46,443 nt of DNA from Flavobacteriales bacterium (GTDB lineage: Bacteria > Bacteroidota > Bacteroidia > Flavobacteriales_D > Sanyastnellaceae), in contig JADFAK010000059.1 in assembly GCA_015665315.1 (NCBI GenBank), forward strand, positions 1 through 46,443, given 5' to 3'. The first letter of the stretch is position 1. Each line of letters starts with the position of its first letter. The translations under genes and the position numbers were made by a program. Positions 1 through 26,751 of the stretch are shown here, one piece after another. The notes beneath the pieces were generated by a model. The model was not told where the DNA came from, did not search any database, and worked only from the letters and a program-made list of their open reading frames with translations.

Positions 1-3000
1 CTGCACGAAAGAAGCTATTCCGCAGTTGTCTGAAACATTTGCGCTAGCTAAATAATCTTGTACTATGGCCGAACAGGATGCAGTTGTATTCACTACTTGA
101 TCGCCTGGGCAATCGAATGTTGGAGGCACATTGTCTTGAAGAATTGCAGTAAAAGAACAGTTGGTTGTGAGCCCAGCTAGATCGACAACTTCCACCTCAA
201 TAATGGTGTTGGCGTTGATCAGGGTACCTGGAGCTGGAGATTGTGTAACAGACAAAATACCACAATTATCACTAATCACTAAAGAGGTCGTATAATCAGG
301 CAAGATAGCCTCACACGATGCGTTTAGATTAAGTGTTTGATCTCCGACACATGTAATTTGAGGTGCGCTTATATCTTGCACTGAAACGGTAAAACTGCAC
401 GACGTTGACAAGCCATTGTCATCACTAACCTCCAAATTTATTGTGTGCACACCGGTTGTCAATACTGTAGACGGTGCCGGAGATTGGTTCCAAGATATAC
501 CTGAGCAATTATCATAGGCCAGCACAGTCGTGCTATAATCGGCGAGGACGTGTTGACAATCACCATCGGCTGCTACAACCTGATTTCCTGGGCAGTTTAC
601 CGTGGGTGGTAAGACATCCTCAACAACTATGGAGATCTCACATGATGACACTAAGCCAGCGAGATCTTCAGCTTTTACACCAATTGTCAGGGGCCCTGCA
701 TTGAGTACGGTTCCTGCGGCAATCTCTTGGGAGAAATCATTTACCGCACAATTATCATTCATGGTAACGAGTTCCTCAAAATCGGGGATGGTCATCTCAC
801 AATTCTGGTCGGCCTGAAGGGTGATTTCGCTAGGACAGCTAATATTCGGAGGTGTATCGTCCTCTAGGGTCAGGAAGAACTCGCAGAAAGTCGCATTTCC
901 GCTATCATCTTGAACAGATATAGATATATTTTGACTGATAAAAATGATCGATCCTGGGACTGGTGATTGGCTAATCGTAGTCGCGCTGCAGTTGTCGCTC
1001 GCATTGATCAAAGGGCTGAAATCTTCAATTTCGTATTGGCAAGTATTGTCTACAGATCTTGTTTGATCGGCCAGACAATCGACGACTGGCGGAGTGTTAT
1101 CTTCAGGAAGTAGCTTGAACTCGCAGTCGCTGGAATTTCCAGCGTCGTCGGTTACGGTTATTGTCACCAATGTAATCGTCGACGCAATAGTCCCGGGAAG
1201 CGGAGTTTGCGTGTAGGTCAACGAAGCGTCGCAATTGTCGGTTGCCGCGACCAAGGGAATATAATCCGCCACTATGAAGGTGCAATCATCTTCAAGGTCA
1301 ATACTTATATCTCCTGGACAGTTGTCGATAATGGGATCAGTTTGATCGGCAGTCAGCACCCAAAACGAACAGGTCGTAAGTGGCAAGAATGAAAGTCCGG
1401 TCGAAAGGAATACTTGTGTATCACTGTTGATTACCGTTCCCGCAGCTGGCGATTGGTAGATAGCGGCAACGGGCCCGCAACCGGCATCGGCTACAACAGC
1501 ACCAGTATAATCGGGTAAGACATATTCGCAATTGGCAGACAAGGTAACATTTTGATCTCCGGGGCAAGTTGGCGCACCCAGATCAACGACCAAAGCGACG
1601 GCTACAGTAAACGAGCAATCGCTTGAATTGCCAGCATCATCGGTTGCGGTTATAGTGACAAGCGTAGCACTTGCTATAATGGTTCCTGGAGCTGGAGTTT
1701 GAACCAAGTCCACGTTGGAATCACAGTTATCGCTTACGGTCACACCTCCTGTATAATCTGGTAGCACATAATCACAATCGGAATTTGGTGCCAATGCGGA
1801 GTTCCCTGGGCAGGAGATGCTTGGTGCAGTATTATCTTGTAGTTCTACATTAAAACTGCATGTTTCGTTTGCTCCAAGTCCATCGGTCGCTGAAAGAGTG
1901 ACTGTTTGATCTGAATTGATAATCGTTCCTGCGGGCGGACTTTGAGTTATGTTGGCCGATCCACATGCGGTGAGGACGAAAGTTGCTGTATAGTCTGGCA
2001 AGACTGCCTCGCAAGCGTCATTGGCGTTCAGTACTTGGTCGGAAGGGCAATTTACTTGCAGCGTTCCAACCGGTTGAATTAGTAACAAGGTGAATGAACA
2101 CGACCCGATATTGTTCGCCTCATCTTCGGCATAAACAGTGATGGTGGTCGTTGAATTAACTACCGTTCCGACCGCTGGGTCTTGGCTCATAGTTAAGTCG
2201 GCCGAACAATTATCGGTTGCCAAAACGGAATTCGTAAAATCTCCGATGACGTATTGGCACGATGCGTTTGGCATCATCGATTGCGTTGCAGGGCACACAA
2301 CATTGGGTGATTGTTGGTCCACTACATGAATAGGAAATGTGCAATAAAGAGTTCCATCGGGCTGGTAGATCGACGCGGTGGTGACACCTAAAGCAAGGGC
2401 CGTTCCTTCGGCTGGATCTTGGGTATATCCGATGGCTTCGCACGTGGAGACTGTGTATGGTGAAATTAGGTCTTCAACTATATAGGTACATGAATTGGTC
2501 GCGCCAACAGTGAGTTCTGTAGGACATTCCACAACTGGTTGTTGTACGCTAATATTAAGAATATTGGACCCAGCTGAAGAACAGCCAGGAGTTGAAACAA
2601 TAGCTCTGATTAGAATATCATCCCAAAGTGCAAACGTATAGGCGTCATTCGTAAATCCAGCTCTTGGAGACCAAGACAATCCACCATCTGTGCTGTTGAT
2701 CCACTGAATGTTACCAGAGTAGCCATTTAATTCAATGCTTACGTTTTCGCCGGCACAAGGACTGGATGTTGTGATGGTTGCAATTCCGGAACTTGGCGGC
2801 GCTGCGCAACACGACGTCACGCCAGAACTAGCCAACTGATACGTATAGATGAATGAGTTGTCGTTTCCAGAGTTAATCGCGTTGGGATTGTAGTCTGATA
2901 TTCCAACTACACAGCTGTTTCCTTCGGCATCCATCGCAACATTGTGAACGATTGTCGTTTCACCCGAACCAAGTAAAAAGGCATTGAGGCATTGACCGTT

Positions 3001-4320
3001 CGTATTAAATTCAGCTACGAGTCCGCTTTCAACGCTTGGCGAGCTGACAGACACACCGTCGGGAAGGAATAATTCCCCTTGGAGTGAGCCGACGATCGAA
3101 ATGTTTCCCTGTCTGTTGGTTTGTACACTAGTTAGCTCAGTAGCATCGCCCACGTCATAGCATACCTCGTACCAATTATCAATTCCGGTAGACTTATTTA
3201 AAGAAGTGAGGAAAAGCTCTTTCGAGTCTCCTGAATTTGCGATGTTTCCGGAAGGGAACCATATCCAGTGGGAAAAATCGGACTCCATAATTCCTGCCAC
3301 ATACACGGCATTGCAGTCGACATCAATTGAACATGAACTGGACTTTCCAGCGTAATCGCAATAGATAGGCTGCGACCAATCGAACGCGCCTGAAGCGTCT
3401 ATTTTTGTGACGAAGAAATCAAATTCACTATCACTTGAGGGCAAACTGTAGCTAAGTTGGGCATCACCTGCTCCATCGTAGAAGAAACACTCTGGTCCTT
3501 TCCATCGACCGACTATATAAACGTCCTCTCCGTCACATGAAATTCCAACTCTTGATTGCTTAAACGTTTCGTTATGGACAAAATCATCATCTGTCGATCC
3601 TACAGTGGCAGACCAAAGTTGAACCCCATCAAAATCTCTTTTTATAGTGACGTAGCCGGTCGAGCTGTTCGAATAGCCATTTACTTCACCACCAAAAGTG
3701 AGAAAACTCGTATCTGTGTCAAAACCACCAAGTATGGCGAGGCCATCATCCCCTACATCCAGCGATAGACCTAGATCATGTCCGTCTCCTCCATCAACCT
3801 CAATCCAACGTATAACTCCGTCTGAAGTGAAAGAAGCTGTAAAAATATCGTAATCATTGGCAGAATTGATATGTGACACATCTTGTGAGATAGAACCATC
3901 AGCACTAGGAAGAGTAAAACTTTTTTGAAAGGTTCCGGTGATGTAAATGTTGGCGTCGGGGCCAACTTCAATATCAAATAGCTCATCCTTTTTATCCGAG
4001 CCAAAAGTCATGAGCCAAAGAATCTCACCTGAGTAGGACAACTTTGCCAGGTAGCAATCATCAGATCCTTGTCCTTGGAGGTTTATTTCTCCAATTCCAG
4101 TGCCGGCGCTCTCATTTCCAAAGAAATCTTCCGCAACAGTACCATCTTTGATCATCCCTCCAACATAGATCGCCGAGGTCTCATAATCCATAGCAACCGC
4201 ATTGGCTGCCTCAAAGTTCGAATTGACAGAGACCAACTCGAAGTTGGTGTCCTGAGCCAATACGGGCAGGCACGCCATGCAAAGTGCGAATAGTAATATT
4301 GTTTTCGTGGTGCGTATCAT
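1..4320 (-). CDS. Large secreted HYR-repeat surface protein (C-terminus cut by window edge)
   Basis: The reading frame is open from an ATG at 4320 down to base 1, giving 1440 codons with no stop, so the gene runs off the left edge. The first 20 or so residues form a signal peptide ending near LPVLAQ. Residues about 20-520 contain repeated 'IYVGG/IYITGTF ... GEILW' blades typical of SBBP-type beta-propeller proteins. From about residue 595 there are eleven HYR-like Ig-fold repeats of roughly 75-85 residues, each starting CPxxQ and carrying C-x-Y/F-x-LPDY and D-N-C motifs; the last is incomplete. HYR repeats usually serve adhesion in extracellular proteins. A T9SS C-terminal domain would be expected beyond the edge but cannot be seen. 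The product is probably a surface adhesin. Domain types are confident; the ligand is unknown. Confidence 0.9.
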   Translation of the reverse strand, partial: MIRTTKTILLFALCMACLPVLAQDTNFELVSVNSNFEAANAVAMDYETSAIYVGGMIKDGTVAEDFFGNESAGTGIGEINLQGQGSDDCYLAKLSYSGEILWLMTFGSDKKDELFDIEVGPDANIYITGTFQKSFTLPSADGSISQDVSHINSANDYDIFTASFTSDGVIRWIEVDGGDGHDLGLSLDVGDDGLAILGGFDTDTSFLTFGGEVNGYSNSSTGYVTIKRDFDGVQLWSATVGSTDDDFVHNETFKQSRVGISCDGEDVYIVGRWKGPECFFYDGAGDAQLSYSLPSSDSEFDFFVTKIDASGAFDWSQPIYCDYAGKSSSCSIDVDCNAVYVAGIMESDFSHWIWFPSGNIANSGDSKELFLTSLNKSTGIDNWYEVCYDVGDATELTSVQTNRQGNISIVGSLQGELFLPDGVSVSSPSVESGLVAEFNTNGQCLNAFLLGSGETTIVHNVAMDAEGNSCVVGISDYNPNAINSGNDNSFIYTYQLASSGVTSCCAAPPSSGIATITTSSPCAGENVSIELNGYSGNIQWINSTDGGLSWSPRAGFTNDAYTFALWDDILIRAIVSTPGCSSAGSNILNISVQQPVVECPTELTVGATNSCTYIVEDLISPYTVSTCEAIGYTQDPAEGTALALGVTTASIYQPDGTLYCTFPIHVVDQQSPNVVCPATQSMMPNASCQYVIGDFTNSVLATDNCSADLTMSQDPAVGTVVNSTTTITVYAEDEANNIGSCSFTLLLIQPVGTLQVNCPSDQVLNANDACEAVLPDYTATFVLTACGSANITQSPPAGTIINSDQTVTLSATDGLGANETCSFNVELQDNTAPSISCPGNSALAPNSDCDYVLPDYTGGVTVSDNCDSNVDLVQTPAPGTIIASATLVTITATDDAGNSSDCSFTVAVALVVDLGAPTCPGDQNVTLSANCEYVLPDYTGAVVADAGCGPVAAIYQSPAAGTVINSDTQVFLSTGLSFLPLTTCSFWVLTADQTDPIIDNCPGDISIDLEDDCTFIVADYIPLVAATDNCDASLTYTQTPLPGTIASTITLVTITVTDDAGNSSDCEFKLLPEDNTPPVVDCLADQTRSVDNTCQYEIEDFSPLINASDNCSATTISQSPVPGSIIFISQNISISVQDDSGNATFCEFFLTLEDDTPPNISCPSEITLQADQNCEMTIPDFEELVTMNDNCAVNDFSQEIAAGTVLNAGPLTIGVKAEDLAGLVSSCEISIVVEDVLPPTVNCPGNQVVAADGDCQHVLADYSTTVLAYDNCSGISWNQSPAPSTVLTTGVHTINLEVSDDNGLSTSCSFTVSVQDISAPQITCVGDQTLNLNASCEAILPDYTTSLVISDNCGILSVTQSPAPGTLINANTIIEVEVVDLAGLTTNCSFTAILQDNVPPTFDCPGDQVVNTTASCSAIVQDYLASANVSDNCGIASFVQ

Positions 4321-9788: not shown

Positions 9789-9971
9789 CCAGGGCGCAAT
9801 GACATTTGCCCTTGTGGCTCAGAATTAAAATGTGAAAAATGCTGCGGAAAGTAAAGTTATAGGAGAACTTGTCAGAATAGACCGACCTCAAATTTCTTCC
9901 CTCAATTGTAACCATTGCCCTTAAAATCATGTAAGCACGTGTCAAGCAGGCTTTTATCTGCTGCCACTACC

Positions 9972-12900
9972 ATGAATTTAAAAACCATTTCATTTTTCGC
10001 AGTTCTCCTTGGATTATTCAGCATTAACGGTGTGTCTCAAGACGAAAACCCATGTGCTTCTGGAGATATCTACCAAGATATGATTCAGAATGATCAAGTC
10101 TTTTCTCGAAGTATGTTCTACTTGAATCAACGACTTTCGGAGATGGCCCATGATGACGAATTTCGGGCGAGCGAAGAGATTTATACGATCCCGGTGGTCG
10201 TCCATATTATCCACGAAGGTGAAGGTATCGGACAATCGAGTAATATCACAGACGAACAAATCTTTAGTGCGATTACCGCGCTCAACGAGGACTTCAGAAA
10301 GATTGCAGGCACCAATGGTGATGGAGATGGCGTCGATGTAGGACTTGAATTTTGTCTTGCCTCGCGTGACCCCGACGGAAATCCTTCTACTGGAATCGTG
10401 CGAGTCAATGGTTCTAGCGTGCCCAACTATGCGGATATGGGGATCGAAGCCTCAGGTGGAATTGGGGCCGACGAGGCGACCGTGAAAGCGCTGTCAACTT
10501 GGCCTCGAGAAGATTACATGAACGTATGGATCGTCAATGAAATAGAAGACAACGATGCTGGTGGCGGTATTCAAGGTTTTGCCTACTTCCCTTTCAATAA
10601 TCCATTGGACGGGATTTGTCTGTTGTACAACGCGTTTGGAACCGTTGGAAACCTCAAATCGAACACCGATATGGGAAGAACATTCACCCATGAGGTCGGA
10701 CACTTTTTAGGACTTTATCACACCTTCCATGACACCCAAGACTGCGACGGCGAAAGCAACTGCGGCACACAGGGAGACCGTGTATGTGACACTCCTGCAA
10801 CCCCTTTAGCAACTCTATGCTCTTCTCCCGCTTGTGGAACTCAACAAGTAGAGAATTATTTGGATTACACCTCTGAGACATGTCGAAACATGTTTACAGA
10901 AGGCCAAAAAGTCCGCATGCGAGCTACCCTATTGACCGACCGCGAGACACTTCTTGATTCATTTGGTTGTGTCCCAGTAACCGATTACGACGCGGGAATA
11001 GCATCAATCGAATTTCCAGGATTTTCAATATGTAGTTCTTCATTCGAGCCAGAAATTATCCTGACAAATTATGGAAGTATCACCTTGACCTCGGTAACAT
11101 TCTCCTACCAAATCGACAATGGGCCGGCCCAAAACTACACGTGGACTGGCAGTCTAGCTCAAGGTTTGTCTGAAAACGTGAATTTACCCATTATCTCAGC
11201 ATCGACTGGCGTACGAAACATAAGTGTGACTTGCTCGAATCCCAACGGGGTGAGCGACGAAAACACAGGCAACAACTCAATCGACAAGACATTCGAAATA
11301 TCCAGCGGCGAGGCTATGCAATTGGAAATAAACATCGATTACTTCGGAACGGAAACCTCATGGATGGTTCACGATGATGGAGGTGCTGTTGTTGCCAGCG
11401 GAGGCCCCTATGTGAACAATGCGCAAGGAACCATCTACAACGAGTCAATCTGCGTAAGCGGTGGTTGCTATTCTCTGACCATGTATGATAGCTATGGTGA
11501 CGGAATGAGCTTTTTGTCTGGTTCATATACCTTGCTAGATGGCGCAGGAGAATTGGTCGCCGAAGGAGGAGGAAACTTTGGTCCCGAAGTAAGCCATGAC
11601 TTTTGTGTCGATGAGGTTATTTCAAATGATCCGCCTACGGCAAATTTCAATACGTCGTCCAATACGGCATGCTCAGGAGGTCAATTGGATTTTTATGACG
11701 CTAGCGCAAATGGTCCTACCTCGTGGGCATGGACTTTTGAAGGTGGAGTACCAGCTACTTCGAGCAATGCGTCTCCCCAAAATATTACCTACAACAATCC
11801 CGGCACCTATGACGTCACACTTACAGTGAACAATGATGGCGGGTCAGACACCTATGTTTCAACTATTACGGTGGCTGCTGGGCCAACAGTTTCTTTGTCA
11901 CCAAGCGACATATCTTGCCACAATGGAAACGACGGATCAATCACTGCCAATGTCACGGGTAATGGACCTTACGATTACAACTGGAGCAGTGGAAGTACTT
12001 CGTCATCGGCTACCGGTTTGACCACAGGCAATTATTCAGTCATGGTCACGGACGACAACGGATGCACCAATCAGGCCAGTCTGTTTTTGGCCAATCCAGC
12101 CGATATGAACTTATCCCTAATCGTCGACGATCCACTATGTAATGGTGGTGCCGACGGAAACATCCAAGCCAATGCATCGCTCGGAAATGGGGGGTACTCT
12201 TATGTTTGGAGCAATGGCGACACCGACTCAAATGCCAACGGCCTAGCTGCAGGAGACTATTCTGTAGTCGTGACCGATAGCAACGGTTGTACAAAAACTG
12301 CTTCGGCCACAATCGACAATCCACCAGCCATTCAGCTTTCAGTTTCTAGCGAACCGACCTCTTGTCCTGGAACTGGCGACGGAAGTGTACTAGCCAATGC
12401 AACAGGAGGAGCGGGAGGCTTTTCGTACGCTTGGAGCAATGGATTGACAATCAACGAAATCAACGGTTTACCAGCGGCAAATTACAGCGTAGTGGTAACC
12501 GATGCGAACGGATGTACTGCCAACAACGCAGTGACTATCCAATCACCCGATCCGATTGAAGCTCAGTTGTTTGACTTTGACATCGCATGTGGTGGAAGCT
12601 TAGGCTCGGCCAACATCGACCCGATAGGAGGCACAGGCGCTTTGACCATATCGTGGAGTTCTGGAGATTCTGGAATGGCCATTGATGAATTGGAAGTGGG
12701 AGAATATTCTGTCACGATTACCGATGCCAATAATTGTACTGTTTCGGAGCAATTTGAAATTACATCGAGCGATGCGCTTAGTGTGCAATTATCGTTCGAA
12801 GAGATTACTTGTCATGGATCTTCAAATGGCTCAATTTTAGCTAGCGCAAATGGGGGTTCTGGTTCGTACACATACAGCTGGAGCCAAGGATCAACACAAG

Positions 12901-14321
12901 ATGAAATTACCAATCTCGGTCCGGGTACCTATTCAGTTGAAGTAGTTGATTCCGAGGGTTGTCCTGGAGAAGCTTCAATTACCATTGATGAGCCAGCAAA
13001 CCTCTCGGTTGTGCTATTCAAAAGCGATATTTCCTGCTACGATGAAAACGATGGATCTATTACATCGACCATCAATGGTGGAACAACTCCATACGAATAC
13101 CACTGGAATACCAATTCACTTGCACCCAACTTGGCCAATTTGAGTCAAGGAACTTATTCTCTAGCGGTGACCGACGATCATGGATGCGAAAAGAGCGCGA
13201 CGATTAGCGTTGTTGAGCCTTCAGAATTGGTTATCAGCCTTGATCTGCTTGCCAACGAGTCATGTGAAGGAAATGATGGATCGGCCCTTGTAAATATTAT
13301 GGGCGGAACACCAGACTACCAACTATTCTGGACCAATGGATCTACCAGTCAGCAAAACAACAATCTTTCCGCAGGAAGCTATTCCGTTACAATTACCGAT
13401 GGAAATGGCTGCCAGGCTACAGAAACATTGAATATCATTCACGACTGCGAGACGGCCGTTCCTACTACCAAGTTGACGGCTGATGATTGTGGCAGTGTGG
13501 GGTTAACATTGGACGATTACATTACGTGTAACGCTATTGAAGACGCCGAAATGTACCAATGGAAATTCGAAAATGCTGCCATTGGATTGTGGGAAGAAGA
13601 AATGACATTGGGAAATAACACCAGCTTCCTTCTAGCTGAAGTACAATCACTTGGGTACGGAGTTACCGTGAATGTCTCTATCAAGACCTTAGTCAATAGT
13701 ATGTGGTCGGCCTACGGCGAAGTATGTCAAATAACCATGGCCACTACAATCCCAATCACGCAACTCATTGCAGCCGATTGTGGAATGACCAGCCTTTCAG
13801 TGGGCGCTTCGATTAACTGCGAGCCCGTTGCAGGGGCCTACGCTTATGAATGGCAAATTACTGGGACCGACTACGAGAATACCTTCGTCACCTACATGAA
13901 TTCTATTTCGATAGAAGAGAGCATGTCTTTAGAGGATCTTACCGAATACCATGTGGCAGTCCGCACTCAAGTAGGCAACGATTGGAGCGACTGGGGGGCA
14001 ACTTGTTCAGTGACCACCGACTTTGGAACATTTGTTGAAGAAGGAAGCAATGACGACCCATCGCTACAAATATTCCCGAATCCGAACAATGGAGAAAAAA
14101 TATCTATCGAAATACGTAACCCTTTACAAGGAGCTGACGTAATAATGCTTGAACTATTTAGTGCCTCGGGTCAATTGGTTGATACAATTGAGATACCAAC
14201 CGACTCTGGCGGCTACTTGAAAACAACTTACACATTTGAAAACAAACTGTCGGCCGGAATGTACTTTATCAAGTACTGGATGAATGACAGTGCCCTCGAG
14301 CAGAAGATGATAGTTAGATGA
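9972..14321 (+). CDS. M43 (pappalysin-type) metalloprotease with PKD and SprB repeats, T9SS-secreted
   Basis: This is a 1449-residue protein. I start it at ATG 9972, which gives a proper signal peptide (MNLKTISFF ... NGVSQ); an ATG 57 nt upstream adds an unsuitable polar leader. The catalytic motif is HEVGHFLGLYH (H240, E241, H244, H250), followed by a C-x-x-x-F-T-x-G-Q-x-x-R-M block typical of M43 proteases. A DSYGDG module follows (506-511), then a PKD domain (about 553-635), seven SprB-type repeats of about 73 residues (about 637-1157), two related FN3-like segments (about 1158-1355), and a type A T9SS sorting domain (LQIFPNPNNGEK ... GMYFIKYW). It should be a cell-surface or secreted endopeptidase carrying adhesin repeats. 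Confidence 0.93.
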   Translation: MNLKTISFFAVLLGLFSINGVSQDENPCASGDIYQDMIQNDQVFSRSMFYLNQRLSEMAHDDEFRASEEIYTIPVVVHIIHEGEGIGQSSNITDEQIFSAITALNEDFRKIAGTNGDGDGVDVGLEFCLASRDPDGNPSTGIVRVNGSSVPNYADMGIEASGGIGADEATVKALSTWPREDYMNVWIVNEIEDNDAGGGIQGFAYFPFNNPLDGICLLYNAFGTVGNLKSNTDMGRTFTHEVGHFLGLYHTFHDTQDCDGESNCGTQGDRVCDTPATPLATLCSSPACGTQQVENYLDYTSETCRNMFTEGQKVRMRATLLTDRETLLDSFGCVPVTDYDAGIASIEFPGFSICSSSFEPEIILTNYGSITLTSVTFSYQIDNGPAQNYTWTGSLAQGLSENVNLPIISASTGVRNISVTCSNPNGVSDENTGNNSIDKTFEISSGEAMQLEINIDYFGTETSWMVHDDGGAVVASGGPYVNNAQGTIYNESICVSGGCYSLTMYDSYGDGMSFLSGSYTLLDGAGELVAEGGGNFGPEVSHDFCVDEVISNDPPTANFNTSSNTACSGGQLDFYDASANGPTSWAWTFEGGVPATSSNASPQNITYNNPGTYDVTLTVNNDGGSDTYVSTITVAAGPTVSLSPSDISCHNGNDGSITANVTGNGPYDYNWSSGSTSSSATGLTTGNYSVMVTDDNGCTNQASLFLANPADMNLSLIVDDPLCNGGADGNIQANASLGNGGYSYVWSNGDTDSNANGLAAGDYSVVVTDSNGCTKTASATIDNPPAIQLSVSSEPTSCPGTGDGSVLANATGGAGGFSYAWSNGLTINEINGLPAANYSVVVTDANGCTANNAVTIQSPDPIEAQLFDFDIACGGSLGSANIDPIGGTGALTISWSSGDSGMAIDELEVGEYSVTITDANNCTVSEQFEITSSDALSVQLSFEEITCHGSSNGSILASANGGSGSYTYSWSQGSTQDEITNLGPGTYSVEVVDSEGCPGEASITIDEPANLSVVLFKSDISCYDENDGSITSTINGGTTPYEYHWNTNSLAPNLANLSQGTYSLAVTDDHGCEKSATISVVEPSELVISLDLLANESCEGNDGSALVNIMGGTPDYQLFWTNGSTSQQNNNLSAGSYSVTITDGNGCQATETLNIIHDCETAVPTTKLTADDCGSVGLTLDDYITCNAIEDAEMYQWKFENAAIGLWEEEMTLGNNTSFLLAEVQSLGYGVTVNVSIKTLVNSMWSAYGEVCQITMATTIPITQLIAADCGMTSLSVGASINCEPVAGAYAYEWQITGTDYENTFVTYMNSISIEESMSLEDLTEYHVAVRTQVGNDWSDWGATCSVTTDFGTFVEEGSNDDPSLQIFPNPNNGEKISIEIRNPLQGADVIMLELFSASGQLVDTIEIPTDSGGYLKTTYTFENKLSAGMYFIKYWMNDSALEQKMIVR

Positions 14322-23148: not shown

Positions 23149-24213
23149 CTAGTTGCAGATAGTTCCGAAGGCGCCCAAGAAAATTAGGAGGTCGGTCGTG
23201 TTGACTACCATGTCTGAATTCAAGTCTCCAAGGCAATCATTGGGATCGGGAAACATGCACGAACCATCGTCTTCCGTTGCCAAGGCATTGTAATTGGAGG
23301 CCGTCGAATAAGTACATCCCAGCACATTAAAGCTCCAAAAAGCAACTCCTACATCTGAGCCTGTTCCGTTAAAAATGAAGGGAGATCCTCCAAAGATAAA
23401 CTCGCCTGCATTCCAAACTCCAGCAGCCACAGCCACGACTTCTCGCTGGTGTCCGCTAGCACCCCACTGAACGTAGTCTTCCATGGCAGCGGTACTCGTG
23501 AAGGCATTTGTGTTGTACAAACCAAATTCACCATCGCCACCGCTCAAAGAACTCCATTCAAGCAGAACCGTCTCGCCGGGCGATAAAACGAAATCGCCAA
23601 TTTGGCTAGGCACCAATTGTACTTCGAGGTAGCTCGGAAAATTGCATAGGTACCATTCCGAGATGTCTTCTTCAACTGTTCCCATATTTGTGAGTTGAGC
23701 AGTATTTTGATTTAGATCGACGTTTGTGATACGTACATTGCTGATGGCAAGCACCCAAAAAGCACTACCATAATCTCCTTGTCCGCCCACAAAGGCAAAT
23801 GGCCCCGTCCCCGGAACGAATTGTCCGGCAAACCAAACTCCTGCCCCTACCGCAACACCTTCACGAAAATGACCTGCGCTTCCCCATTCGACATAATCCA
23901 CGATAGCGGCAGAGCTTCCAAAGCTCGTTGAAGAATACAATCCGCACTCGCCATCGCTTCCAGACAATGCTGGCCAAGTGAATGTGAGTGTTGCCCCTGG
24001 TACCATATTAGTAGCTAGGCCCGTTAGCGAAGAAATGGGGTCGTAATCTGGGAAATTGCACATTGAATATGGACCAACGTCGAGATCGGCATCTCCCAAG
24101 TTAGTGAGCTCTACATCACCCGTGGCGGGATCAATCATCGTGATTCGTACATCGGCTTGGGCAGAACAGTATAGGGCGGCGAAAAGGGCGCCTAGAAAAG
24201 TAAGAGTCTTCAT
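23149..24213 (-). CDS. Secreted protein with two lamin-tail-like repeats and dockerin-like C-terminus
   Basis: This 354-residue protein has a signal peptide (to about residue 19, YCSAQA). It contains two homologous segments of about 145 residues (about 20-160 and 160-300). Each starts with an IR(I/T)T motif and contains CNFP(D/S)Y, a GECGLY/GEFGLY motif, DYVxWG and GVW(F/N)AG. This is the pattern of lamin-tail-like (LTD) beta domains. One GCT...DDGSC repeat follows, and then a 28-residue tail with a single Ca-binding-loop-like sequence (GDLNSDMVVNTTDLLIFLG). No T9SS sorting domain is present; the same tail ends the neighbouring protein at 24409. Function is unknown; it is probably an extracellular structural protein. 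Confidence 0.8.
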   Translation of the reverse strand: MKTLTFLGALFAALYCSAQADVRITMIDPATGDVELTNLGDADLDVGPYSMCNFPDYDPISSLTGLATNMVPGATLTFTWPALSGSDGECGLYSSTSFGSSAAIVDYVEWGSAGHFREGVAVGAGVWFAGQFVPGTGPFAFVGGQGDYGSAFWVLAISNVRITNVDLNQNTAQLTNMGTVEEDISEWYLCNFPSYLEVQLVPSQIGDFVLSPGETVLLEWSSLSGGDGEFGLYNTNAFTSTAAMEDYVQWGASGHQREVVAVAAGVWNAGEFIFGGSPFIFNGTGSDVGVAFWSFNVLGCTYSTASNYNALATEDDGSCMFPDPNDCLGDLNSDMVVNTTDLLIFLGAFGTICN

Positions 24214-24239
24214 TTTAAGTATTTATGTGGTTAATACGC

Positions 24240-24247
24240 CAAAGGTA
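24240..24247 (-). promoter_or_regulatory. Bacteroidota -7 box for the 23149-24213 gene
   Basis: TACCTTTG on the minus strand matches TAnnTTTG and lies 26 nt before the ATG. It sits downstream of the terminator of the preceding gene, so this gene has its own promoter. Confidence 0.5.
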
Positions 24248-24344
24248 CAATAGGTCTTGAAAGCTTTGAGTACGCAAAATGCGAAATTGATGTAGTTGTT
24301 TGACTCCCACGTGAAGCACGATGACAGACGGAACTATTGTTGGC

Positions 24345-24384
24345 GAAAAAAAAAAGAGGCTGCCTCCGAATGGAAGCAGCCTCT
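24345..24384 (-). terminator. Rho-independent terminator of the DDGSC-repeat gene
   Basis: On the minus strand a perfect 9-bp stem AGAGGCTGC/GCAGCCTCT is followed by ten T residues. It lies 25 nt after the stop codon at 24409 and is one of the strongest terminators in the window. Confidence 0.92.
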
Positions 24385-24408
24385 CAATTCACATAGTATC
24401 GAATCCAA

Positions 24409-26751
24409 TTATGGACAAGATGTTCCAAATAATCCAAGGAAAATTAGGAGGTCAGAAGTATTAATCTGCCCATCATCAGTGTAATCACCCAAACAAGTAT
24501 TTACACAAGTTCCATCATCTGTATTCGCATATGGATTGTAGTTGTCAAAGCTTGGATCCGTACATCCCAAAGCAACAGCAATACATCCACCATTGTCTAC
24601 ATTGGCCGATGAATCGTAGTTGAACGCCAAAGGATCCGTACATCCTGCAACTGCAGCTATACATGAACCATCGTCGGTGTTGGCAAGAGAATCGTAGTTG
24701 ATAGCCGAACAATCGGTACATCCCATGGCAACAGCGATACAGCTACCATCATCCGTGTTGGCAGATGAGTTGTAGTTCAATGCTGTTGAATCAGTACATC
24801 CTAGGCAAACGAAGATACAAGACCCATCGTCCTCAGTAGCTGTGCTGTCATAGTTTGACGCACTTGGGTAGGTACAACCAGGATTTGTAAGGATACATGA
24901 TCCATCATCGCATCCTGCAGTCGAGTTGTAGTTAATTGCAAGTGGGTTTGTACATCCTGGGAAAGTACATGATCCGTCGTCGCATCCGGCTGTTGAATCA
25001 TAGTTACAAGCTGTTGAAACCGTACATCCTGGGAAAGTGCATGATCCGTCGTCACATCCTGCTGTTGAATCGTAGTTACAAGCTGTTGAAGAAGTACATC
25101 CTGGGAAGGTGCATGATCCGTCGTCACATCCTGCAAGCGAATCGTAGTTACAAGCTGTTGAATTCGTACATCCTGGGAAAGTACATGATCCGTCGTCACA
25201 TCCTGCTGTTGAATCGTAGTTACAAGCTGTTGAAACTGTACATCCTGGGAAGGTACATGATCCGTCGTCACATCCTGCTGTTGAATCGTAGTTACAAGCT
25301 GTTGAAACTGTACATCCTGGGAAAGTACATGATCCGTCGTCACATCCTGCTGTTGAATCGTAGTTGCAAGCAGTTGAATTTGTACATCCTGGGAAGGTAC
25401 ATGATCCGTCGTCACATCCTGCTGTTGAATCGTAGTTACAAGCTGTTGTATCGATACATCCTGGGAAAGTACATGAACCATCGTCCACATTTGCAAGTGA
25501 ATCAAAGTTACATGCTGCAGAATCAGTACAACCGTTTACAACTGGAGGGAAAGTCAAGAACTCACCAACGACTTGTGGGTTTGTTCCATCCTGCGCTCTA
25601 TATTGTAGGTTGAAGGTCAAATCAACGATACCATCTGTTGTAAGCTGTGCCAATAAAACACGCCCTGATCCGTCAGGAAAGGCAGCTGGCTCAGTGTCAG
25701 GGAATACATACCATGCACCACCACTAGCACTGCTTATATCTAATGAACCGCCAGCTTCAAACGGACCTTCGTTGGCGTTTACAAAAGAAACACCGTTGGG
25801 TCCTGACTCAGCACCTATTGTTACCCAAGAATCATATTCCAATGGTGGAACAAATGGGAACATAGCTGGATCAATCGAATTCGAAGTGAATCCACCGTTG
25901 GCGTCTTGGTAAAATGAAGTCGTCGTGTTGATAGACAATGGCGACACATCTTGACCGTAAACAACGACCATTTGATCGAGTGGGTTTGTGAAGTTGGCAT
26001 AAACACGGTATGTGTTCATTCCTCCTACTGTGTTCGAAGCAACTTCTTCCCATGAAAGGAATGTGTAAGAAGGTGCAGGGTAAATACATGACCCATCGTC
26101 TTCAGTTGCAAGCGAATCGTAGTTCGTGGCTGAAGGATCAGTACATCCTGGAACACCAGAAATGTTGAGGACTACGCCAACTTCTTGAAACGATGTTCCC
26201 GCCTGATCTCTCCATTGAATATTCAATGTCATGTCAATGAGTCCATCTGTTGTAAACTGACCAAGAAGAACTTGCCCGTTTACATCTGGAAAAGTCGCTG
26301 GATCACCTGGCAATAAAAATAGGGATCCACCAACGAGATCGTTGACTGTGAATCCACCGCCAGCTTCAAAAAGCGTGAAATACGTGTCCAGACCAATAGT
26401 GTTCAAGGTACTTCCTACGTTATCAGCAAAGGCCAACGTAAAGAACGAATCCCACTCCATTTCTGGAACTAAACCAAAAAATCCAGGGTTGATATCCAAC
26501 GATGTCGGACCACCAAAGGCATTTTGATAAAAAGAAGTTGTTGTTGATACAGACATCGGTTGCGTATCAAAGCCATACATGGCGATCAACTGGTCCGTAG
26601 GGTTGTCAAACTCTGCATATACTCTCCATGTTGTTTGACCGGGTATGGCGTTCGATGCATAAACTTCTGCAACGATACCAGTAAAAGCGGCAAAGCCCAA
26701 TGAAGGTATAAGAAATAAACAGAGAGAGACGAATAGATTTCGAATACTCAT
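24409..26751 (-). CDS. Secreted DDGSC-repeat protein with dockerin-like C-terminus
   Basis: This 780-residue protein has a signal peptide (to about residue 21, LGFA). Two homologous domains of about 190 residues (about 22-205 and 225-405) share (W/Y)RVYA(E/N)F, NP(T/L)DQ, TTTSFYQ, FEAGG and a TTDG(L/I)(I/V)D(M/L)T motif. They are separated by one GCTDPSATNYDSLATEDDGSC unit. Fourteen further units of about 24 residues follow (about 405-750), each with a GCT start, an N-Y/F pair and a D-D-G-S-C end. The last residues are a dockerin-like tail (GDYTDDGQINTSDLLIFLG) shared with the 23149 protein. The Asp-Asp-Gly motifs suggest calcium binding and the paired Cys suggest disulfides. I know no assigned function. 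No T9SS domain is present. Confidence 0.88.
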   Translation of the reverse strand: MSIRNLFVSLCLFLIPSLGFAAFTGIVAEVYASNAIPGQTTWRVYAEFDNPTDQLIAMYGFDTQPMSVSTTTSFYQNAFGGPTSLDINPGFFGLVPEMEWDSFFTLAFADNVGSTLNTIGLDTYFTLFEAGGGFTVNDLVGGSLFLLPGDPATFPDVNGQVLLGQFTTDGLIDMTLNIQWRDQAGTSFQEVGVVLNISGVPGCTDPSATNYDSLATEDDGSCIYPAPSYTFLSWEEVASNTVGGMNTYRVYANFTNPLDQMVVVYGQDVSPLSINTTTSFYQDANGGFTSNSIDPAMFPFVPPLEYDSWVTIGAESGPNGVSFVNANEGPFEAGGSLDISSASGGAWYVFPDTEPAAFPDGSGRVLLAQLTTDGIVDLTFNLQYRAQDGTNPQVVGEFLTFPPVVNGCTDSAACNFDSLANVDDGSCTFPGCIDTTACNYDSTAGCDDGSCTFPGCTNSTACNYDSTAGCDDGSCTFPGCTVSTACNYDSTAGCDDGSCTFPGCTVSTACNYDSTAGCDDGSCTFPGCTNSTACNYDSLAGCDDGSCTFPGCTSSTACNYDSTAGCDDGSCTFPGCTVSTACNYDSTAGCDDGSCTFPGCTNPLAINYNSTAGCDDGSCILTNPGCTYPSASNYDSTATEDDGSCIFVCLGCTDSTALNYNSSANTDDGSCIAVAMGCTDCSAINYDSLANTDDGSCIAAVAGCTDPLAFNYDSSANVDNGGCIAVALGCTDPSFDNYNPYANTDDGTCVNTCLGDYTDDGQINTSDLLIFLGLFGTSCP
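24505..25536 (-). repeat. Coding tandem repeat array, 72-bp unit
   Basis: The repeat codes for the 14 DDGSC units. The core from about 24959 to 25530 has an exact 72-bp period: TGGGAA landmarks recur at 24959, 25031, 25103, 25175, 25247, 25319, 25391 and 25463 (first G of GGG). Copies differ by only a few bases. Flanking copies toward the C-terminus are diverged and 78 bp long. Because the unit is a multiple of three, other frames also stay open and give false ORFs on both strands. Confidence 0.95.

Follow-up and report, generated by a model that had tools for sequence, protein, structure and literature searches.

Why do two neighbouring genes for secreted-looking proteins of a Flavobacteriales bacterium end in the same short tail, at the place where several other large secreted proteins around them carry a sorting domain of the type IX secretion system (T9SS)? 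Bacteroidota are thought to export large proteins to their surface mainly through the T9SS, and the position of the tail raises the question of what it does there. The two genes, P1 (23149..24213, minus strand, 354 amino acids) and P2 (24409..26751, minus strand, 780 amino acids), lie within a stretch of 46,443 nucleotides (the window), which is part of contig C24 of a 4.6-Mb draft genome, and both encode a signal-peptide-like N-terminus. On sequence grounds, the tail of each is most likely one repeat, comprising one calcium loop and one helix, of a dockerin of the GC type. It probably acts as a calcium-dependent docking tail that holds exported proteins on a surface receptor.

The C-terminal tail and its relation to dockerins

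The tails occupy 23152..23235 in P1 and 24412..24495 in P2, both on the minus strand, and the two C-termini (CLGDLNSDMVVNTTDLLIFLGAFGTICN in P1, CLGDYTDDGQINTSDLLIFLGLFGTSCP in P2) share a 28-residue motif with 64% identity. Both open reading frames (ORFs) lie where the initial annotation placed them, with ends that fit the motif it gave. The P1 tail is a single calcium-loop-helix repeat with a cysteine near either end and the loop DLNSDMVVNTTD; the corresponding loop in P2 is DYTDDGQINTSD.

The idea that this tail is peculiar to P1 and P2 was rejected. Searched alone against its own genome, the P1 tail gave 113 matches at E ≤ 10, many of them as closely spaced pairs. A repeat profile was then built from the fetched match sites, and all frames of at least 60 residues were read with it at a threshold of 15 bits. 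It finds the repeat within the last 90 residues of 74 distinct frames, as a tandem pair in 45 and as a single copy in 29, although one gene is probably counted twice: F122, cut by a contig end, has the same repeat sequence as the first repeat in F619, a frame at the end of another contig. In 71 of the 74, no more than 11 residues separate the last repeat from the frame end (stop or contig end). In the fetched frames 127 stretches reach 15 bits, a count for which the profile was trained on these same tails and in which some stretches are doubled in overlapping loci; each of five residue shuffles gave none, with a best shuffled score of 5.7 bits. The 113 matches in the genome, together with shuffles that yield no match at 15 bits, argue that the repeat matches are not due to chance. 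By our own simple hydrophobicity rule, 61 of the 74 frames have a signal-peptide-like start. Family scans of these 61 (45 in one set against Pfam and NCBIfam, 12 more against Pfam only) place the tail at the C-terminus of many unrelated protein bodies. One tail protein (L078:701-3964, contig C57) contains 11 stretches that match Pfam PF00526, the Dictyostelium repeat. Two secreted-looking frames of 101 and 98 residues on contig C5 (L054/L106, near 34709 and 36042) consist mostly of one dockerin repeat and a diverged second one.

It is the pair form that reveals what the tail is. Its consensus, taken from 30 of the 45 pairs, is CxGDFNxDGxVNTxDLLxFLGxFGCxxxCxxDLNxDGxVNTxDLLxFLGxFGxxC. Against PDB sequences, the profile of these 30 tails ranks dockerins first, the best being that of Cel48 from B. 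cellulosolvens (2y3n, E=1.2e-8), with both repeats covered. An AlphaFold2 model of the pair tail of L107, from a Flavobacteriales metagenome-assembled genome (MAG), has a mean predicted local distance difference test score (pLDDT) of 95.7. Foldseek superposes it on 2y3n_B with a template-modelling (TM) score of 0.87, a root mean square deviation of 1.0 Å and 45% identity; its 32 best-ranked entries are from cellulosomes or other cohesin-dockerin systems, and those that follow are mostly calmodulin-like proteins. The NCBIfam model NF041540 (dockerin_GC, cut-off 29 bits) matches 11 of 45 scanned tail proteins of the source genome at E ≤ 0.001, the best of them above the cut-off. Of the pair tails, L052 (33.0 bits) and L107 (29.9) pass and L111 (26.4) falls below, while five tails from Planctomycetota-type loci match at E < 0.01 and only L119 (33.3 bits) exceeds the cut-off. 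Pfam Dockerin_1 (PF00404) also matches the source genome, several times above its cut-off, which is exceeded in 2 of 14 control genomes. By sequence and by predicted fold, the pair form of the tail is a dockerin.

P1 and P2 have one repeat each and so fall short of the two repeats of a complete dockerin. Positions 35-67 of the 67 in NF041540, the latter half of the model, align with the C-terminus of P1 and score 15.3 bits against a cut-off of 29; the C-terminus of P2 has no match to this model. With the pair form identified as a dockerin and the P1 tail matching half of the GC-type model below its cut-off, we term both tails half-dockerins, P2 without a match of its own there, and the description of the motif in the initial annotation as half a dockerin fits.

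The residues expected of a calcium loop are kept. For these counts four frames were dropped from the single tails (F122; F1126, a fragment; F1180 and F264, in which a diverged second repeat follows) and two atypical ones, F401 and F437, from the pairs. With a permissive residue set, ligand-type residues stand at loop positions 1, 3, 5 and 12 in 25 of 25 clean single repeats, and in both repeats of all 43 clean pairs, where the count for the second repeat is biased, that repeat having been located by the ligand pattern itself. In 31 of the 43 pairs one of the first three residues is a cysteine and another cysteine stands at the end; 10 pairs have neither, two only the first and none only the last (Fisher p=3.4e-8, with kinship among tails ignored). 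The middle two cysteines are both present in 41 of the 43, and 24 of the 25 clean single tails have a cysteine at both ends, one of these having two extra. The co-occurrence of the terminal cysteines suggests a disulfide clamp across the ends of the domain, together with a second bond in the linker of the pair form.

Exchange with the T9SS domain and spread of the tail

The initial annotation held that the tail stands in place of a T9SS domain, and one protein body shared by the two kinds of C-terminus supports this. The choice_anch_B family (TIGR04312) has members at E ≤ 1e-20 in 109 of the 114 genomes searched from this Flavobacteriales family. Their C-termini, in 68 non-redundant proteins, are a T9SS type A domain in 32, a dockerin in 29 and something else in 7; none has both. 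The sample is not random, being drawn from the best-scoring loci, 15 chosen genomes and 20 chosen stretches. T9SS domains were called with a profile of eight type A domains of the source genome, L194_1903 being labelled by eye, and frames were dropped if they had fewer than 250 aligned residues, were near-identical, had runs of N near the end or were cut by locus ends (L169 was kept despite such a cut, its pair being whole in L061). Within the source genome alone, five choice_anch_B proteins carry a T9SS domain at the C-terminus and one a dockerin pair. A quick tree requires at least three changes of C-terminus, or at least two between T9SS and dockerin alone, with long branches that leave the exact number unsure. 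In one swapped protein, L208, a single repeat follows a GCT unit, as in P1 and P2. These sequences support the view that, on this shared body, the dockerin repeat stands in for the T9SS type A domain. A third C-terminus, matched by neither the T9SS nor the dockerin profile, was seen in L149, L153, L154, L159, L161, L162 and L166 (genera g18 and g21), where a YxDDGS-, YSDGS- or YNDGT-like stretch is followed by KxF near the end.

Most genera of the family have the tail in many copies. The pair profile matches at E ≤ 0.001 in 111 of the 114 genomes, mostly with 20 to at least 58 matches per genome in genera g1, g5, g13-g18, g20 and g21 and with 4 to 14 in g8-g12. The 9 genomes of genus g3 and the 7 of g6 yield 0-2 matches each, all of them weak. 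Of 395 genomes sampled across the phylum, four match at E ≤ 1e-6, two of them from this same family. Among named records, 25 loci come mostly from Flavobacteriales MAGs (L107 is labelled Cryomorphaceae) and from Planctomycetota, chiefly Phycisphaerae, with a few others; identical match places imply that L107 lies within genome G044 and L111 within G047. The tail is C-terminal in 23 of these loci and internal in L124 and L126. Together with the 71 of 74 frames in the source genome, this bears out the C-terminal placement that the initial annotation had proposed to check, and a profile matching mainly internal EF-hands, the result that it named as refuting, is not what was found; signal-peptide-like starts, the other point that it had proposed to check, occur in most frames of the source genome.

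The half form is itself widespread. P2-like proteins, which have two to five copies of a domain that we call D1, GCT units and a single tail, end in one repeat in genera g1, g7, g13, g15, g16, g17, g18 and g20. That the half tail is a degenerate remnant of the pair is disfavoured by its retention in these proteins across eight genera. In a sister genome (G028) a glucose-6-phosphate-isomerase-like gene, P2, P1 and a ribA-like gene follow one another in the same order as here, with both proteins single-tailed; the names of the flanking genes are our reading of their sequences. In G047 (L255) the ribA-like gene stands directly after P2 and P1 is missing, and in G046 and G044 (L256, L257) P2 again follows the isomerase-like gene.

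A docking tail, its partner and the rival explanations

How would such a tail work? We suggest that in the source family the dockerin, either as a pair or as a half, now serves many proteins as their C-terminal docking tail. After export, the repeat would fold on binding calcium, and a disulfide between its terminal cysteines would clamp the folded form. The repeat could then bind a surface receptor other than a recognisable cohesin, so that its carrier would be held or assembled at the cell surface without a T9SS sorting domain.

Several results weigh against this proposal. One concerns the partner, for which the initial annotation had suggested a cohesin-like protein: none was found with Pfam cohesin at E ≤ 0.001 in the source genome, nor in 107 of the 114 family genomes. 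The best match in the source genome (PF00963, contig C62) has 20.9 bits and E=0.00106, below the cut-off. Whole P1 and P2 match neither Dockerin_1 nor dockerin_GC at E ≤ 1, Dockerin_1 reaches E ≤ 0.001 in only 4 of the 45 scanned tail proteins, and the calcium loop of P2 has a threonine at position 3. Finally, the last repeat lies 20 to 32 residues before the end in three of the 74 frames, and five have one further match of at least 15 bits upstream.

The C62 match was dismissed as a partner, its host protein reading on inspection as an immunoglobulin-like adhesin. Seven of the 114 genomes have a cohesin match at E ≤ 0.001, five of them above the cut-off. One such match came from the 22 genomes to which 23 of the 25 named loci belong, at a place already counted among the 114 and so probably in the same genome. 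Two of the cohesins above the cut-off are those of L133 (G042:C45:55590-55889) and L132 (G039:C4:11046-11321); read by eye, one of these proteins has a dockerin pair at its C-terminus and the other a T9SS type A domain, an adaptor-like and an anchor-like arrangement.

Another candidate is the D1 domain, present twice in P2 (copy 1 at 26143..26694 and copy 2 at 25543..26067, minus strand, 45% identical). D1 occurs in 102 of the 114 genomes, often in tandem, belongs to no Pfam family and has no convincing match among Pfam or PDB sequences. Among 12 D1 sequences there is no match to Pfam cohesin at E ≤ 1, and relationship to cohesin by sequence was rejected after an hhalign comparison with seven Pfam-cohesin-matching family sequences (five of them above the cut-off) gave a probability of 0.07%. 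A model of D1 from a two-sequence alignment taken from the window is all-beta, with a pLDDT of only 44.6. Foldseek aligns this weak model with cohesin 2vo8 at a TM score of 0.45 on target length, and in VIA-align several cohesins score Z 5.2-5.8, level with beta-sandwiches of no relation to them. A cohesin-like fold of D1 is at most a lead. Among frames with a readable end, D1 occurs with dockerin tails and never with a T9SS tail. The copy numbers of D1 and tail are correlated (Spearman 0.82 over 114 genomes and 0.89 over 21 genus means, where high counts are lower bounds, kinship is ignored and D1 proteins themselves bear tails), and both are nearly missing in g3 and g6. The correlation fits a partner and equally fits a frequent passenger domain. 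It is a doubtful speculation that the family has a second surface-assembly system alongside the T9SS, in which dozens of exported proteins per genome, through disulfide-clamped whole or half dockerins, would bind a non-cohesin receptor, with P2 and its D1 array as core scaffold and D1 as the receptor domain or part of it.

The main rival to a docking tail is that the T9SS itself recognises the repeat for sorting, as a dockerin-shaped substitute for the type A and B domains. This would explain why the same bodies bear either the tail or a T9SS domain at one position and why no protein has both. The T9SS component SprA was indeed matched in every one of the 13 Bacteroidota handles searched, which amount to 11 distinct genomes. 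These, however, include four genomes of the nearly tail-free genera g3 and g6; of the 14 genomes of these genera with a choice_anch_B match, 12 have a protein ending in a T9SS domain and 2 are not callable. No SprA match was found in nine genomes with C-terminal relatives of the tail, eight of which are titled Planctomycetota or one of its classes and one (L121) uncultured bacterium; they are MAGs of uncertain completeness, and the tails of L123, L127 and L129 are distant (35-44% identity). The C-terminal position of these tails suggests that the repeat can be used without the T9SS, which weakens, though it does not dispose of, the case for T9SS use in Flavobacteriales. Known T9SS domains, moreover, have a beta-sandwich fold, unlike the predicted dockerin fold of the tail. 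We therefore consider it unlikely that the tail is simply a T9SS signal, and the alternative sorting signal initially suggested is not established by these data.

Two further explanations we consider improbable. EF-hand loops usually function as pairs, and half-dockerins might pair in trans, P1 with P2 or like copies with each other, to make up a complete dockerin with two loops and two disulfides between the chains. In the pair form, the arrangement of cysteines may reflect C1-C4 and C2-C3 bonds related by a pseudo-twofold axis, which is compatible with such pairing, as are the cysteines kept at both ends of nearly all clean single tails and the adjacency of P1 and P2, both of which keep half tails in the sister genome. 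Yet the bond could equally well be intra-chain, and no P1-like neighbour of the P2-like gene was found in the fetched stretches of G047, G044 and G046; an excerpt of PMC8063739, moreover, describes half-dockerins of Ruminococcus flavefaciens as functional when unduplicated. The other possibility, which we rate no higher, is that the tail merely stabilises its carrier as a calcium-dependent cap and has no partner. The conserved calcium ligands and cysteine clamp would suit such a cap, as would a source genome in which no cohesin was found. Targeting or attachment is nevertheless favoured, because the tail is exchanged with a dedicated sorting domain on one body and placed at the C-terminus of many unrelated ones. 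A docking tail thus remains the reading that we prefer.

Comparison with known systems, and the surroundings of P1 and P2

The kind of domain described here is known and has a name in NCBIfam. Like dockerin_GC, the Flavobacteriales pair tails have two C-terminal loop-helix repeats, and some exceed its cut-off; they differ in that most have an FGCxxxC linker and cysteines at both ends, and P1 and P2 in having one repeat. With cellulosomal type I and II dockerins (PF00404; 2y3n) the pair tails share the calcium loop pattern and the two-helix fold, whereas the source genome has no Pfam cohesin at E ≤ 0.001, the carriers are varied and single-repeat versions occur. The T9SS type A domain (TIGR04183/PF18962) takes the same position on the same choice_anch_B body and is unlike the tail in sequence and fold, with no match in P1 or P2.

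The half-dockerins of R. flavefaciens belong to the cohesin system of a Gram-positive rumen bacterium, a setting different from that of the tails in the source family. The likeness lies in the single, non-duplicated repeat, which the excerpt of PMC8063739 mentions as functional. For Cloacimonadota, the excerpted text of PMC8542988 describes C-terminal dockerins on secreted enzymes and a cohesin scaffoldin with a C-terminal surface-attachment domain. In these organisms, as in the 'planctosome' of freshwater Planctomycetes, dockerins are placed on secreted peptidases, and in Cloacimonadota also on glycosidases, while cohesins, by contrast with the source genome, are reported for both (excerpts of PMC8542988 and PMC6461901). 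The planctosome model in the excerpt of PMC6461901 includes a lamin tail domain, a likeness to P1.

Searches of the open-licence literature in PubMed Central (PMC) returned nothing on a 'GC-type dockerin', on choice-of-anchor together with dockerin, or on a single-repeat EF-hand dockerin of Ruminococcus flavefaciens. Titles combining dockerin and Flavobacteriales included none about these tails, and for Cryomorphaceae, Schleiferiaceae and Crocinitomicaceae none of the matches listed had a dockerin. As far as these searches show, what is new is that one Flavobacteriales family widely uses the repeat where a T9SS domain would otherwise stand, that half forms are numerous and that no cohesin is recognisable. 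Dozens of proteins that bear a dockerin instead of a T9SS domain, in a genome with no recognisable cohesin, pose the testable question of what holds them and by which route they leave the cell; single-repeat dockerins would then extend well beyond cellulosomes.

The bodies of the two proteins differ. In P1, two lamin-tail-like repeats make up the body, as judged by inspection and one weak match to the Pfam lamin tail domain (LTD) at residues 157-222 (23548..23745, minus strand; 22.5 bits, E=0.00016, below the curated cut-off of 34.3). They are followed by one GCT...DDGSC unit (23257..23319, minus strand) directly ahead of the tail. P2 has, after its D1 copies, a long cysteine-rich GCT...DDGSC array (24496..25540, minus strand) and an additional unit between the two copies. 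On inspection, a GCT...DDG(S/T)C unit stands directly ahead of the tail in both proteins, as the initial annotation had noted, but the unit is no fixed companion of the half tail in the genome at large: a regular expression found it within 25 residues ahead of at least 8 of 25 single-repeat and at least 8 of 42 pair tails (p=0.25; F619 also left out), counts that are lower bounds since divergent units, such as one directly ahead of the P2 tail, are missed. A general rule of this kind is accordingly not supported.

For neither P1 nor P2 are T9SS type A or B families (PF18962, TIGR04183, type B) listed at E ≤ 1. Ten large ORFs of the window, chosen by hand, were scanned, one of which (1-4320) extends beyond the window edge. 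Five have a T9SS type A domain above the Pfam and NCBIfam cut-offs and none of the ten has a type B domain listed; the initial statement that nearly all other large secreted proteins here carry type A or B domains was largely right. One large protein of the window, an M43-like metalloprotease encoded at 9915-14318, combines a T9SS type A domain with a PKD domain and six SprB repeat stretches.

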